IMG/VR virus record: IMGVR_UViG_3300043398_000164
Coordinates: 1-53,378 of that record
Strand: one strand, 5' to 3'
Length of the DNA stretch: 53,378 nt
Origin: a virus
A program made the translations under genes and the position numbers. The first letter of the stretch is position 1, and each line of letters opens with the position of its first letter. Positions 12,785-44,496 of the stretch are shown in pieces. The notes beneath the pieces were generated by a model. That model worked only from the letters and a program-made list of their open reading frames with translations. It was not told where the DNA came from and did no database searches.

Positions 12785-15784
12785 TCACCACTCGCACGAC
12801 ATGGCATTGGCCTCTTCGCGCCCTGCCGCGTAAATCCGGCTTCCCAAACTCCCCTCGGGGGCCTGATGCAGCCGTTCCCAGTCGGAAATTTGCTGTTGAG
12901 CGGCCATCTTACGGGCATCCAGCGCCCGGACGGCGATGGCCGCCCCGACCGCCCGATCGCCGTGGTTCTCTCCGGCCTCGGAGGCGTCAAACGCCGTGCG
13001 GCTCTTGGGATGCTCGATCTTCCCGCCCACCCCATCGACAAAAATGTACTCGCCGCATTCCAAGATCAGCGGCAAACTGAGGATTTCCACCGCATCGTCG
13101 TTCATGGCGATCATCAGTGGCCGCATCGTCTCGGCCTTATTGCTGTTGTGATACCCAGGCAGCACGCCCGGCTTGGCATACGGCCGAAACTCATCCCCTT
13201 CGGCCTGATAGTAGAGGTTCGGGTAGCCCAGTTCGACGATCTTGGACGTGAAAATCGACCCCGGCAGGGCATTCCGCTCCCAATTGAGCACCGGCCACGT
13301 CAAATCCCCCCCGAACCACGCGCAGATCGCATAGATGTACTCGGCGAAATGGTCCGCATACATGTCGTTGCGCACGACTTCCGCGACCTGCCGCCGCGTG
13401 GACAGGTCAAAGAAGATGGCCGTCGAATTGCTTGAGCCGGAACCCCCCGTTCCGCCGCCCAAGTCACACCCGACGGCCAATCTCAGCCGCGGCGGACGCC
13501 CATCGACCACCGGAACCCATAGGGAAATCGGCCCCCGATCGACAGTTTGCCACGACGAGTCCTTGAGATTCGCCGGATTGGCTTGTAAATCCCCCCGGAC
13601 CATTGGCTCGACGCACCGCGCCTTATATCGCTCAATGGTCGCGGGGTTGAACGGCTTGCCCGACGCCCCGCCAAAGTCCATGTCGTATTCGCGCGACATG
13701 TACTTCGCGTTGTCGCCCGATTCGCGCCACTTACGGTCGTACCAGACGCTCCGCACCCGACCATCCAAAATAAACTCGTAGTCGGGCGGGAACTCATAGT
13801 CATCGAGCTGCTGGACTTTCCCCTTCTTGGCGGTGTATTTGCCAATCCGATGAACCGGATTGTCTTTCCAGTCCAGCGTGTACGTGAGCCACGGGCCGGG
13901 ATTCTCCAGTTTGCGAAAGTGCTCGGTATTCTCATCATTACTGGACGAAATCAGCAGAATTTGATTCGTCGTCGCCAGCAGATTCACAATCGCCTTCGTG
14001 TCGTAGCCCTTCATGAAGAAGCCGGCTTCGTCCAGAAAGAACGACGTGTACCGATCCGAGCGCCCGATATTCTCCGTGGCGCTTTCGGCATACAGCAGCG
14101 CCCCCGTGTCGGGATTCTCCCAGGTATGGGCGGTGACGCGGCGATGCACGTCGGGATTCCACTTCCGGGGGAGCATCCAGCCGGGGAGATTCTTCAAGAG
14201 GAAGTCGAACTTCCACCCCAGCGACCCATGCCGCGCGGGATCGTCCGCCTTCTGCATCGTCTCGCTGCCCATCCCCAGCACGCAGCCATGCTTGCGGAAC
14301 AGCCACGCCCAGCAGTACGCCGCCAGCACCATCCACGACGCGCCCTGCTCGCGACTCTTGCGCTCGACAATGTGCCGCTGGCCAAAGTAATGCTGCAAGC
14401 CAGCAATCAGCGGGTCTTGATGCTCCCACGTATTGAAGGGGATGGCGCCATAGACCGGATTGCCTAACGCATCGGTAATCCCATCCCGCGGCTCGTAAAT
14501 CCAGCAGTTGTGAACCAACAGCGGTTCACCATTTCCGTCGATGACGGTAAAGCAACGATTAGGTCCGCAATTCAAGAGATCGTAGACAACCGCCGTCCGT
14601 GAATCCCCGGAGCAAGTAACCGATCGCCCGTCAGACCCATGCGAATGCGGTATTGAATTGCCGCCTTGGTCACGCCCGCAATCGCCGCCGCTTCGGTCAG
14701 CGTCAACCTGCCGAGCGTCGCGTTGATAATCACATTGCGGCGCGTATTGTTGGCTTGCTCTTTTCTCGTGGCCCAGCGACAGTTCATCGGGTAGTAGCCG
14801 AAGTTGTTGTCGATCCGTTCGAGCGTCAAGCCAGGAGGGCGCTCGCCCATATCTTGGAGGAAATTCTCGAACGTCAGCCACCTCGCACAGACTTCGATTT
14901 CCCTGCCGCCGTAGCGATGATAGCTGGCATTGTTGGGATTGCTGCAACGATCGTGCATCGACATCCAAATCGTATAAATTGATTCCCCTGAGCGGCCGTG
15001 CGTCTTTCTTCCGCCTTGCTTGCATCCCTTGCGACCGCAGCTTTTTTGCTTGCCGCGGCGAAGATTGTCTCCGCTCACAATCCGCTCGTTCCCGCACTCG
15101 CAGCGGCAAAGCCACGCCGCCTGTGTCGTCGTGCGGTAAAACCCCTCGCGCCGAATAACCGTCAGGCAGTCGAACTGGAGCCCGGTCAAGTCGATCACCT
15201 GCGTCTTTCCAGCCATGTTTCGTCCACACTAAATGGTCGTGCGTGAGGTAAATCTTATACGCAAAGATAACAGACTTACGACCCTTGCACAACGCACCGC
15301 CTTGGCTCACCCAGTTCTCGCCGTCCCACACGAGATCATCGCTGGTCACGCACTCGATCGGGACAAGTCCTCGATCTGTCACCACGGGCGTACCGACAGC
15401 AAGGCAGAATGCATTGATGTAAAACAGCAGGTCGGAAGCACACGCTTCCAGAAGAGATTGCTGAAACGCCTTGTCCTCGGCCGCCCGCTCGGCGAGCATG
15501 ACCCGATACTCGAAGTGCGCCAGCGGGTCTTTAGGGACCGTCCCATACCACGGCGCCGCAGCGACCAGGGGATGAATCGTCCCCGGCTCAAACTGCAAAG
15601 TTTCGCCAACCGGCCAATCTCGCACAAACCACCCAGTGGCAACCGCTCCTAGGCCGGCATTGTAACAGGCCAGCACAGCGAAACGGCAGGTCCATCCGGC
15701 GAGCCGCATGGATGCTCGCAAAAAGTCAGACCGTACCAAGATTTCGCCCGCCCCACGTCTCCGTCCACCGGCTCCCTGTAGCAA
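12785..15784 (-). CDS. terL: Terminase large subunit interrupted by an intein
   Basis: This packaging ATPase-nuclease is read as one 999-codon frame. The exteins join as FYINAF/CWIYEPRDG, a typical terminase N-terminal motif. Downstream are a Walker A-like VERKSREQGASW, a Walker B FFLDEAG, and RNase H-like nuclease motifs (AVGCDLGGGTGG, then VLNWERNALPG, then ENHGDRAVGAA). The intein occupies codons 127-426. About 170 codons of its read-through frame (after PVRLPDG, before VVYDLLNCG) do not look like protein; there the DNA encodes an HNH nuclease in another frame. The true start is uncertain: the ORF overlaps the 111-aa gene by 136 bases, and an ATG at 15709 is the next candidate. Confidence 0.9.
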   Translation of the reverse strand: MLQGAGGRRRGAGEILVRSDFLRASMRLAGWTCRFAVLACYNAGLGAVATGWFVRDWPVGETLQFEPGTIHPLVAAAPWYGTVPKDPLAHFEYRVMLAERAAEDKAFQQSLLEACASDLLFYINAFCLAVGTPVVTDRGLVPIECVTSDDLVWDGENWVSQGGALCKGRKSVIFAYKIYLTHDHLVWTKHGWKDAGDRLDRAPVRLPDGYSARGVLPHDDTGGVALPLRVRERADCERRQSSPRQAKKLRSQGMQARRKKDARPLRGINLYDLDVDARSLQQSQQCQLSSLRRQGNRSLCEVADVREFPPRYGRAPSWLDARTDRQQLRLLPDELSLGHEKRASQQYAPQCDYQRDARQVDADRSGGDCGRDQGGNSIPHSHGSDGRSVTCSGDSRTAVVYDLLNCGPNRCFTVIDGNGEPLLVHNCWIYEPRDGITDALGNPVYGAIPFNTWEHQDPLIAGLQHYFGQRHIVERKSREQGASWMVLAAYCWAWLFRKHGCVLGMGSETMQKADDPARHGSLGWKFDFLLKNLPGWMLPRKWNPDVHRRVTAHTWENPDTGALLYAESATENIGRSDRYTSFFLDEAGFFMKGYDTKAIVNLLATTNQILLISSSNDENTEHFRKLENPGPWLTYTLDWKDNPVHRIGKYTAKKGKVQQLDDYEFPPDYEFILDGRVRSVWYDRKWRESGDNAKYMSREYDMDFGGASGKPFNPATIERYKARCVEPMVRGDLQANPANLKDSSWQTVDRGPISLWVPVVDGRPPRLRLAVGCDLGGGTGGSGSSNSTAIFFDLSTRRQVAEVVRNDMYADHFAEYIYAICAWFGGDLTWPVLNWERNALPGSIFTSKIVELGYPNLYYQAEGDEFRPYAKPGVLPGYHNSNKAETMRPLMIAMNDDAVEILSLPLILECGEYIFVDGVGGKIEHPKSRTAFDASEAGENHGDRAVGAAIAVRALDARKMAAQQQISDWERLHQAPEGSLGSRIYAAGREEANAMSCEW
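14507..15406 (-). other. Intein in the terminase large subunit
   Basis: The intein is 900 bases, 300 codons. It starts with Cys1 (CLAVGTPVVTDRGLVPIE, block A), has block B as LTHDHLVWTKHGW about 55 residues later, and ends with VVYDLLNCGPNRCFTV and GEPLLVHN (blocks F and G), followed by Cys+1. All splicing residues (Cys1, block-B His, C-terminal Asn, Cys+1) are present. The usual block G penultimate His is there. In place of an in-frame endonuclease domain, the middle holds a separate HNH ORF in another frame. Insertion is just upstream of the ATPase P-loop, in a conserved extein motif, as usual for inteins. Confidence 0.85.
14572..15216 (-). CDS. HNH homing endonuclease nested out of frame in the terL intein
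   Basis: This 214-aa HNH-family protein starts VIDLTGLQFDCLTVIRREGF, then has a Cys cluster (CRCECGN, CGRKGC) and the HNH core: WMSMHDRCSNPNNASYHRYG, GREIEVCARW, GLTLERIDNNFGYYPMNCRW. The C-terminus (LTEAAAIAGVTKAAIQYRI) looks like a helix-turn-helix. Its ATG overlaps the codons for block B (KHGW) and its TGA overlaps block F (DLLN), so it fills exactly the slot between intein halves but in a different frame from terL. It presumably cuts intein-free terL alleles. No Shine-Dalgarno sequence is evident before the ATG. Confidence 0.85.
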   Translation of the reverse strand: MAGKTQVIDLTGLQFDCLTVIRREGFYRTTTQAAWLCRCECGNERIVSGDNLRRGKQKSCGRKGCKQGGRKTHGRSGESIYTIWMSMHDRCSNPNNASYHRYGGREIEVCARWLTFENFLQDMGERPPGLTLERIDNNFGYYPMNCRWATRKEQANNTRRNVIINATLGRLTLTEAAAIAGVTKAAIQYRIRMGLTGDRLLAPGIHGRRLSTIS

Positions 15785-24953: not shown

Positions 24954-25271
24954 ATGAGCACCGGATTCCCCGCGAACTTCTCCAACTACCCGCCAGGCGT
25001 CACGCACGAGCCGAACGACGGATACGACTCGCTCTGTGCTGACATTGAAGCGGCGATTACGTACGCCATTCGCCGAGCCGTGATGGGGTCCGGCGTCAAG
25101 CTCGCCGGTCAGATCGTGCAGGTGGAGCGCGTCGAGACCGTTCCGTTCTGCGACCGCAAGGAGATTATGGTCCGGCCGTGTTTCGTGTTGACGCGAGACG
25201 GCGGCGACCTGGACGAGATTGTGGCGCACGTCGGGTGTGCGTTGGCGGAAGTGTTTTCTCGCGTTCAGTAG
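24954..25271 (+). CDS. Small hypothetical protein
   Basis: This 105-aa protein has a central helix (SLCADIEAAITYAIRRAV) and a beta-rich second half (LAGQIVQVERVETVPFCDRK, then IMVRPCFVLTRDGGD). It follows the repeat-protein gene by 12 bases and precedes the HNH gene, so it is probably in the same transcript. No family recognised. Confidence 0.6.
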   Translation: MSTGFPANFSNYPPGVTHEPNDGYDSLCADIEAAITYAIRRAVMGSGVKLAGQIVQVERVETVPFCDRKEIMVRPCFVLTRDGGDLDEIVAHVGCALAEVFSRVQ

Positions 25272-25288
25272 GTCGAAGGATCATCTCA

Positions 25289-25921
25289 ATGGAAGCGTGT
25301 CTTAGCAAGGTTTGTATTTCATGCAAGCAATTACTTCCATTTGAAGAGTTCGGAAATGCCTCGAACAATAAGAACGGAAAGAAGGGTTCGTGCAAGGAGT
25401 GTTCACGCAAGCGATTGAAAGCGTGGTGCCAGAAGAACAGGGATTACTACAACAGAAGGCAGCGTGAATATCGTGAAAGGCGACGACAGGAAGGGAATCC
25501 AGTTAAGGGCAGATACATTCAGTCGATTTGGTGGGCAATGGTATCTAGATGCCACAACCCAAAAGACAAATGGTTCAAGGACTATGGAGGCAGGGGCATT
25601 GTTGTTTGCGATCGGTGGCGGAATTCTTCAGCAGACTTTGAGTCTGACATGGGGCCGCGTCCTACCAGTAAGCACTCTATCGACCGCATTGATAACGACG
25701 GTAACTACGAACCCGGCAACTGTCGGTGGGCGACTGAGTTTCAGCAAAAGCGCAACACTAGAAAAACGGTGATGCTTACTTATGGCGGCATAACGATGTG
25801 CCAATTGGATTGGGCTAAAAAGGTTGGCATGTCCAACGCAGCACTGATACGAAGGCTGCGGCGAATGTCGGTTGAGATGGCCCTGACAATCCCACCTAAA
25901 CGCACCAAGGTGCAGCGATGA
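25289..25921 (+). CDS. HNH homing endonuclease
   Basis: This 210-aa protein begins with a zinc-ribbon-like part (KVCISCKQLLPFEEFGNAS, then GSCKECSRKRL), then a basic linker and the HNH core: WWAMVSRCHNPKDKWFKDYG, GRGIVVCDRW, SIDRIDNDGNYEPGNCRW. It ends with a HTH-like segment (QLDWAKKVGMSNAALIRRL) as in its intein-nested relative. ATG 25289 has AAGGA upstream; a longer frame from 25178 would overlap the previous gene. It is free-standing, so a mobile gene that invaded the early operon. The next gene starts in an ATGA overlap. Confidence 0.85.
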   Translation: MEACLSKVCISCKQLLPFEEFGNASNNKNGKKGSCKECSRKRLKAWCQKNRDYYNRRQREYRERRRQEGNPVKGRYIQSIWWAMVSRCHNPKDKWFKDYGGRGIVVCDRWRNSSADFESDMGPRPTSKHSIDRIDNDGNYEPGNCRWATEFQQKRNTRKTVMLTYGGITMCQLDWAKKVGMSNAALIRRLRRMSVEMALTIPPKRTKVQR

Positions 25922-43204: not shown

Positions 43205-43876
43205 ATGGCCATTGCTCACGTAATTTCGACAAGCGCGGCCGGAGCTGATAGTGCGACGGTCACGACGAGCGCCGTAGACACGACAGGCGCGAATCTGATT
43301 GTACTGGCGGTGGCGCGCTATCAGGGCGGAACTGGAGTAACAGTTTCGGACAGCAAAGGCAATACGTGGACCGCGCTCACTGACCACCCGACCGCCACTG
43401 ATCCGGCTATCCGGCTTTATTACTGTCTCGCTCCAACTGTTGGAAGCGGTCACACGTTTCAGATGTCGGGAACGGGAGTGTACCCGTCCGTTTCCATGTC
43501 CGCCTTCAGCGGCGCAAGTGCTTACGACAGTCAGCAAAACGGCAACGCCAGCGACTCAAGCGCCACGTCGGGGCAGCCCGGTTCGATCACGCCGTCAGAA
43601 AATAATTGCGTTGCCGTAACGGGCGCCGTGACAAACGGCACATCATTAGTTGTAGATGGCGATTATAGCGCCCATGCGACTGTTTCCTCCCCTGGCGCCG
43701 GCTATACCAGCGGCATCGCCTATTCAATTCAGACCACGGCTGCGGCTACAAATCCAACGTGGTCTTGGACTGGCGGCAGCTCACATGCCGAGGCGATTGC
43801 CAGTTTTCGGGCTACCGCCGGCGGTTCCGTATTCACCCCCTACTTCTACCGCACGCATGTTGCGAGGCAGCCTTAG
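43205..43876 (+). CDS. Jelly-roll-like adhesion protein
   Basis: This 223-aa, Ser/Thr/Gly-rich beta protein has alternating strands typical of a jelly roll ([20 protein letters not shown], then [10 protein letters not shown], then [16 protein letters not shown]). It looks like phage and bacterial surface domains with the pattern S-KGN-W. It has no catalytic signature. An HNH gene lies antisense immediately after it (stops overlap by 4 bases). The short tail [14 protein letters not shown] shows no sign of truncation but could have been changed by the insertion. Confidence 0.6.
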
Positions 43877-44496
43877 TGATTATTTCGCTGCGACCAACTG
43901 TATTTAGCGGCGCAACTTGTGGAGCAAGTTGCCTGGGTGCTTTTCTGCCTTGCGGGAACAAACTCTTGTCCGCAATTGGCGCATCGGCGCGTATTTTCCG
44001 AAACAAACTTTTCGCGTTTGCCGGCGAAATAACACGCCCTATTACAGTGAATTTGTTCCTTGTATCCGGCATGGCGCACAAACATTACCCCGCAGATAGG
44101 ACACTTTTGCGGCTTGAGCCGTCGTTCTGGATGCGGTCGCTTTCCTTGTGCCTTAAGTCTCGCAACAAGCTCTCTTTTCCATTTAGCCCTAGCCGTTGGC
44201 GAAAGGTAAAAGCCAATCGGCGCGCGGTTCTTAGCCTGTTCGGCCCTTGTCGCCCAGCGGCAATTATCGGGACTGTAGCCAAGGTCATTGTCAATCCTTT
44301 CCAGCGTCATTCCGTCTGGCCGTGGAGACATATCCTCAACGAACGAAGCGACGGAATCCATCCATCGCTGACATACAGAAATGCCGCGCCCGCCATACCA
44401 GCGGTAATACGGATGCTCCTTGTCCGTACATCGCCTGCGCATCTGATCCCAGATTTTGTAAAGCGGGTGCCTGGAAAGCCCATGAGTCTTTTTCAT
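43873..44496 (-). CDS. HNH homing endonuclease, antisense to the adhesion genes
   Basis: This 207-aa protein has the HNH core [60 protein letters not shown], closely similar to the two other HNH genes here. Its C-terminus carries two zinc-finger-like sections ([11 protein letters not shown] with CNRAC, and [10 protein letters not shown] with CSTSC). It is the only minus gene among the plus adsorption genes, so it probably arrived by homing. A weak promoter upstream is not apparent. It starts 12 bases before the next plus gene. Confidence 0.85.

Follow-up and report, generated by a model that had tools for sequence, protein, structure and literature searches.

A putative HNH homing endonuclease gene overprinted in a second reading frame on a predicted terminase intein

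The window analyzed here is the IMG/VR virus record IMGVR_UViG_3300043398_000164 at its full length of 53,378 nucleotides. Its gene for the terminase large subunit (terL) contains an insertion that is very probably a mobile mini-intein with a separately translated HNH homing endonuclease gene overprinted on it in another reading frame; protein splicing, internal initiation of translation, and cleavage of empty sites are the activities that we infer for it. An earlier note, made from the sequence alone, had proposed a new intein-endonuclease architecture in which the endonuclease is translated separately, and the conserved offset and open frame of nested homologs support that proposal. The layout is common rather than unique to the window, with one annotated precedent, P45/P46 of phage APSE-1. 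The boundaries of the element, its two frames, the improbable absence of stop codons, the conserved arrangement, and the family of each part can be read from the DNA and its homologs, and the folds are predictions.

The terL intein and its nested gene

The features of the locus are as follows. Relatives are referred to by locus number (L).

12785 to 15784, minus strand: terL open reading frame (ORF), intein included; 999 amino acids from a candidate TTG start, stop-free, matching PHROG 2 (terminase large subunit, E = 1e-15)
15407 to 15784, minus strand: TerL N-extein, ending in FYINAF, joined directly to the C-extein in the intein-free relatives L004 to L008
14507 to 15406, minus strand: intein of 300 codons, Cys1 to His-Asn with Cys+1; splicing blocks A, B, F, and G, and Foldseek matches
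12785 to 14506, minus strand: TerL C-extein, beginning CWIYEPR, from comparison with relatives L004 to L010
15143 to 15406, minus strand: N-terminal splicing region, intein residues 1 to 88, from AlphaFold predicted local distance difference test (pLDDT) scores
14606 to 15142, minus strand: host-frame linker, residues 89 to 267, resulting from out-of-frame reading of the HNH gene; disorder predicted (pLDDT about 44)
14507 to 14605, minus strand: C-terminal splicing region, residues 268 to 300, VVYDLLNCGP...LLVHN; AlphaFold pLDDT 95 to 97
14572 to 15216, minus strand: nested HNH homing endonuclease gene, 214 amino acids, frame +1 relative to TerL; PHROG 374 (E = 2.8e-62), AlphaFold pLDDT 89, start MAGKTQ..DLTG in common with L219

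The earlier note's claim of complete splicing motifs in the terL frame was borne out by blocks A, B, F, and G, by exact junctions, and by a predicted Hint fold. The intein (CLAVGT...LLVHN/C, the slash marking the splice junction) has a Cys1 nucleophile, a block B of the TxxH form (THDH), and the C-terminal motif LVHN/C. Among 40 intein sequences C1, H58, and N300 are invariant, and T55, D28, G29, V298, and H299 are conserved at 90% or more. Both boundaries are exact because intein-free TerL relatives continue across the junction, which is uninterrupted in the terminases L004 to L008 (FFINAF CWIDEPR in L004). AlphaFold modeling of the host-frame product predicted a confident Hint fold made of residues 1 to 85 and 268 to 300, with about 180 disordered residues between them; pLDDT was 96 to 98 at residues 1 to 70, 90 at residues 71 to 80, and 74 at residues 81 to 90. 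When this model was used as the Foldseek query, the first 27 hits were inteins or bacterial intein-like domains without exception, followed by a Vint domain at hit 28 (best E = 1e-3, probability 1.0). The intein also gave a profile match to PI-MtuI (E = 1e-6). The intein assignment rests on these motifs and on the profile and fold matches, from which splicing activity is predicted.

The TerL frame is continuous from 12785 to 15784, and the host ORF is not broken between N-terminal and C-terminal intein halves (IntN and IntC) as it is in a split intein. Nor was an in-frame endonuclease domain found: the host-frame middle gave no nuclease match and is predicted to be disordered, and the HNH sits in the +1 frame. 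A group I intron, for which the locus gave no Rfam match, was considered and rejected.

The HNH ATG lies at intein codon 64 (KHGW), directly past block B and at an offset of +1, and its TGA overlaps block F (VVYDLLN). The earlier note had described an HNH gene in another frame running from an ATG at block B to a TGA at block F; the frame and the TGA were as described, and the ATG falls just past block B. Membership in the HNH family PHROG 374/3377 is indicated both by the profile match and by conserved residues, the nearly invariant family columns having been compared with the residues of the window. Searches of PDB sequences with the HNH profile and of plasmids gave no matches, and a DNA-level phage search returned HNH fragments only. 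Free-standing HNH genes of PHROG 374/3377 occur elsewhere in the window at 25178 to 25921 (plus strand) and 43873 to 44496 (minus strand).

The TerL frame is kept open across the HNH gene

The TerL frame contains no stops across the HNH gene, where 9.6 are expected, and none of 20,000 synonymous codon shuffles inside the HNH gene, which left its protein and codon set unchanged, gave zero. The same result was obtained with HNH codons 26 to 200 alone, the overlapping ends having been removed (0 stops versus 8.9 expected; 0 of 20,000 shuffles). A host-frame stop requires a T closing an HNH codon before AA, AG, or GA. Of the 48 HNH codons that precede one of these dinucleotides none ends in T, versus 36 of the 165 other codons (Fisher p = 5e-5). 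The two free-standing HNH genes elsewhere in the contig served as an internal control: over about 97 codons, their corresponding frame is interrupted by 10 and 5 stops.

At 60% GC, the contig contains many chance ORFs. In its other long genes, windows of 190 codons are open by chance at 2.2% of positions in the same frame and at 0.1% in the other frame, and openness by itself is therefore suggestive only. The synonymous test and the homologs settle that the openness exceeds chance, which bears out the earlier note's judgment that a stop-free TerL frame over about 200 codons would be unlikely without selection.

Homologous inteins carry nested endonuclease genes

The homolog sample was drawn by intein sequence alone, not for HNH, and comprised 96 loci (80 viral and 16 bacterial). 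A nested out-of-frame endonuclease ORF was present in 78 of the 96 (65 distinct). The remaining loci were 10 mini-inteins, 3 split inteins, 2 loci (one distinct) with an in-frame LAGLIDADG endonuclease, 2 shrunken inteins, and 1 cut by a contig end. None of the 96 loci had an in-frame HNH. L051 and L087, which have HNH genes inside long same-frame ORFs, were checked as candidate in-frame HNH inteins and are not inteins. By PHROG, 65 of the 66 nested ORFs scanned are HNH endonucleases; the nested HNH in L236, L276, L286, L302, and L305 was assigned by eye. Over 62 distinct cases there were no host-frame stops versus 464 expected, with 61 of the 62 individually significant (p < 0.05), and neither alternative frame is open in any of 84 free-standing HNH genes from the same family. 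Conservation of the offset and of the open frame, which the earlier note had suggested checking, was found in every nested homolog classified, and the mid-gene break in the terL frame that it had held out as possible counterevidence was absent, all nested homologs being unbroken.

The offset is constant within each lineage, and both +1 and +2 offsets occur. In L219, the TerL of another phage that is 27% identical to the TerL of the window, the intein occupies the same site with the same offset and start codon, and the HNH begins MAGKTQ..DLTG like that of the window. The window intein is also related to the DNA polymerase I inteins of APSE-1, Caulobacter phage GB2A, and Shewanella phage SFCi1, and a homologous HNH is nested at the same offset in all three. 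The homologous polymerase intein is carried by phages RW, RLK, and KcrB as well as by GB2A. The homing endonucleases form clades by host gene (PolA, SNF2 helicase, and TerL), and intein distances correlate with endonuclease distances (rho 0.70; 0 of 2,000 permutations); the pair has therefore had a long common history.

Other members of the same intein search family have an in-frame LAGLIDADG endonuclease (L296/L297) or are mini-inteins of 123 to 166 amino acids without a nuclease (L266/L267, L290, L292, L307, L308, and L312). Endonucleases therefore seem to have been swapped or lost within the family.

Dual coding is confined to the ends of the overlap

15143 to 15216, minus strand: 5' dual-coding overlap of about 24 codons, GWKDAGDRLDRAPVRLPDG and MAGKTQVIDLTGLQFDCLTVI; excess host-frame identity is found here only
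14572 to 14605, minus strand: 3' dual-coding overlap, the HNH end with its TGA inside block F; from the frame overlay and pLDDT

Comparison of 20 diverged pairs showed stronger conservation in the HNH frame than in the host frame, with changes concentrated at the third HNH codon position; a near-identical APSE pair was uninformative in this comparison. In 12 pairs analyzed in detail, most have no host-frame identity past codon 25 above that expected from HNH conservation, the exceptions being L215-L216 and, weakly, L207-L208. Within the first 25 codons host-frame identity is above expectation in several pairs, and between the window and L203 it is 0.50 versus 0.27 expected (p = 0.013). In the linker, whatever host-frame conservation is seen in the pairs that include the window is accounted for by conservation of the HNH.

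The pair identities and the AlphaFold model therefore confine dual coding to the ends, with about 24 codons on the 5' side and about 10 on the 3' side. The earlier note had considered both frames meaningful over the first 20 codons, which agrees with the 5' overlap, and dual coding does not reach beyond the two ends. The host-frame middle appears from the alignments and the structural model to be a disordered linker that is kept open, and not a second meaningful protein.

The same layout in other families and split relatives

Nested nuclease genes are also found in other intein families. An HNH_3 nuclease lies at offset 2 in TerL inteins of another site (L155, L159, L173 to L178, L180 to L186, and others, and phages Highwayman, TJE1, and LS06-2018-MD07); L177 is an AT-rich member of this set (nested gene GC 0.31). 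An HNH-like ORF is present at offset 2 in the polymerases of Salmonella phage SETP3, Pseudomonas phage MR14, and EBPR siphovirus 2. The nested SETP3 HNH is matched at 80% identity or above by at least 163 phage records; those of Salmonella phages among the matches listed are annotated as DNA polymerase only or are unannotated. The SETP3 gene itself lies at 2593 to 3333 of L213. DUF559 nucleases, which are related to Vsr, lie at offset 1 (+1) in helicase inteins of Vibrio phages and Corynebacterium phage phi673 (L206, 2748 to 3374; L207, 2769 to 3542; L208, 2757 to 3392). LAGLIDADG endonucleases in the same surveys are in frame (L093, L096, L209, and L296).

Three relatives, L265, L298, and L313, are truly split: the N part ends at a stop, and a separate ORF in a different frame encodes the C part. 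Because of these loci the link to split inteins is real. The earlier note had raised a step toward or from a split intein, and the split relatives agree with this; the intein of the window itself is continuous. An HNH-like ORF lies across the break in L265, and a putative GIY-YIG nuclease (by eye; without a Pfam hit) lies at the break in L298. In L313 (Aggregatibacter kilianii) a second intein, with a nested HNH, is located downstream.

Proposed mechanism and alternative explanations

Translation of the TerL frame would yield TerL-N, the Hint N half, a meaningless linker of about 180 residues, the Hint C half, and TerL-C. The Hint halves would fold together, excise the insert with its linker, and join TerL-N to TerL-C. 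A second ribosome on the same mRNA would initiate within the intein, read the +1 frame, and produce a free HNH endonuclease, which would cut intein-free terL alleles so that recombination could copy the intein DNA into them. Any stop in the linker would deprive the phage of TerL, and selection would therefore keep this frame open.

Several results weigh against this mechanism. The Shine-Dalgarno sequence at the nested start of the window is weak:

15223 to 15225, minus strand: weak Shine-Dalgarno-like GGA (GGA only) ahead of the HNH ATG, gtgtggacgaaacATG; duplex energy -3.0, unremarkable in the terL gene

A later GTG (15196 to 15198) is a possible alternative HNH start. Across the family, in favor of the mechanism, Shine-Dalgarno cores are enriched before nested starts: they were present in 25 of 28 curated cases (background 0.18), some of whose starts were chosen by hand, and under a blind first-start rule in 30 of 57 (background 0.20, Kolmogorov-Smirnov p = 9e-8). 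A PDB fold search with the HNH model was uninformative, with a best E of 0.23 and PacI no higher than rank 7, and the window proteins, the terL intein included, had no match above the cutoff in Pfam or NCBIfam. The missed Pfam and NCBIfam models reflect a limit of model sensitivity and not the absence of a structural defining feature; the relatives L223 and L239 pass PF14890 when the whole host protein is scanned.

One alternative is that a split intein or fractured gene is forming, with TerL-N/IntN and IntC/TerL-C as separate chains, the HNH between them, and splicing in trans. The split relatives are consistent with this: in each, a stop interrupts the N part and the C part has its own ORF in a different frame, and a nuclease gene overlaps the break in two of them. 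However, the window and all 78 nested loci are unbroken and show strong selection against stops, which trans-splicing would not require, and we consider this explanation very unlikely. It is highly improbable that a programmed ribosomal frameshift yields an IntN-HNH fusion in place of internal initiation. The constant offset of each lineage and the weak Shine-Dalgarno sequence of the window would fit a frameshift, but Shine-Dalgarno-bearing start codons are enriched at the beginning of the nested gene, and the occurrence of both +1 and +2 offsets would need opposite shift directions.

The two remaining alternatives have almost no chance of being correct. The GC content of the contig, with its many chance ORFs and its open 190-codon windows in the same relative frame, could suggest that base composition and the amino-acid content of the HNH account for the open frame, but this is refuted by the synonymous shuffling, by the AT-rich L177, and by the stop-rich free-standing paralogs. 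A sequencing or assembly frameshift, which the earlier note had also considered, could have displaced an ordinary in-frame HNH domain in what is a single metagenomic contig, and in-frame HNH inteins have been reported (Dalgaard 1997, cited in PMC5050341). Two compensating errors would be needed because both intein halves share one frame. The offset is moreover constant within lineages and is the same in independent contigs and in the isolated, independently sequenced phages APSE-1, Caulobacter GB2A, and Shewanella SFCi1, a conservation that refutes an artifact.

Relationship to known systems

The precedent for an overprinted intein endonuclease is the DNA polymerase P45 of APSE-1 with its nested P46 (NC_000935; van der Wilk et al. 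1999), in which a homologous intein and HNH have the same +1 offset and the same placement within the intein; the host gene is DNA polymerase I there and TerL in the window. P46 is annotated in GenBank as an HNH endonuclease within P45. In the open-access literature searched we found no paper explaining the P45/P46 overlap as an intein architecture and no account of an intein with an endonuclease in an overlapping frame. Closest among published ideas is the ShiLan domain, with the Pacc40 gp60 insertion, in which an out-of-frame HNH lies in a phage methylase whose host frame is stop-free (Arsenault, Gosselin, and Gogarten 2025, PMC11855218). No splicing motifs were found there, and its authors concluded that it is not an intein and not an intron (PMC11855218). 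The out-of-frame HNH and the open host frame are common to the window, but in the window splicing motifs are present and a complete intein surrounds the HNH, unlike in a ShiLan-type insertion.

Ordinary large inteins with an in-frame LAGLIDADG endonuclease (for example the Cane17 portal intein, L296, and L093) also unite a Hint domain and a homing endonuclease in one element, but in these the intein polypeptide includes the endonuclease as one of its domains. Group I introns with nested endonuclease genes likewise pair a self-removing element with a separate nuclease ORF, by RNA splicing rather than the protein splicing predicted here. Dassa and colleagues reportedly described in 2009 fractured genes with split inteins and free-standing, often Vsr-like, endonucleases, mainly in phages. 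The endonuclease of fractured genes is a separate gene, as in the window, but the host gene is broken in two, whereas the frame of the window is continuous. The out-of-frame nested DUF559 nucleases of the helicase inteins L206 to L208 can be likened to the Vsr-like endonucleases of fractured genes.

As currently understood, inteins either include their endonuclease as a domain or, in rare fractured genes, have it encoded by a separate gene that breaks the host. Most members of this big phage intein family do neither, the endonuclease being overprinted. It is likely that overprinted inteins are a third standard architecture beside large inteins with an in-frame endonuclease and split inteins: an independent HNH or DUF559/Vsr-like gene occupies the mini-intein loop in another frame, and the host frame is open only to keep the splicing halves on one chain. 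This architecture would be ancestral and prevailing in the large phage intein family of DNA polymerase I, SNF2 helicase, and terminase, would have arisen more than once, and would be a source of mini-inteins through HNH loss and of split inteins through a stop in the linker. Overprinting offers a natural intermediate for the entry of endonucleases into inteins and for the origin of split inteins, and it explains junk-looking intein middles in annotated phage polymerases and terminases. It is also an example of two genes overlapping at length on one strand, with a simple and testable selective force holding the frame open, and the layout is common, selected, and testable in isolated phages.

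Mobility

L061, a second nested intein, has an empty site in close sister phages, with the +1 residue changing from Ala to Cys. Divergence is raised over about 120 to 240 nucleotides on both flanks of the insertion and only there, a comparison that is limited on one side because L093 has a second intein 236 nucleotides upstream. The flank pattern fits a gene-conversion tract and supports mobility, and it lends indirect support to the predicted cutting of intein-free alleles by the HNH. In-frame LAGLIDADG inserts in TerL are present in L093 (3073 to 5808) and L096 (2953 to 5763) and are seemingly Ala-first (PPRH/ALDIKEK ... VTTHN/SKSE). The insert lies 236 nucleotides upstream of the L061 nested-intein site, and one gene family thus contains two inteins of opposite architecture.

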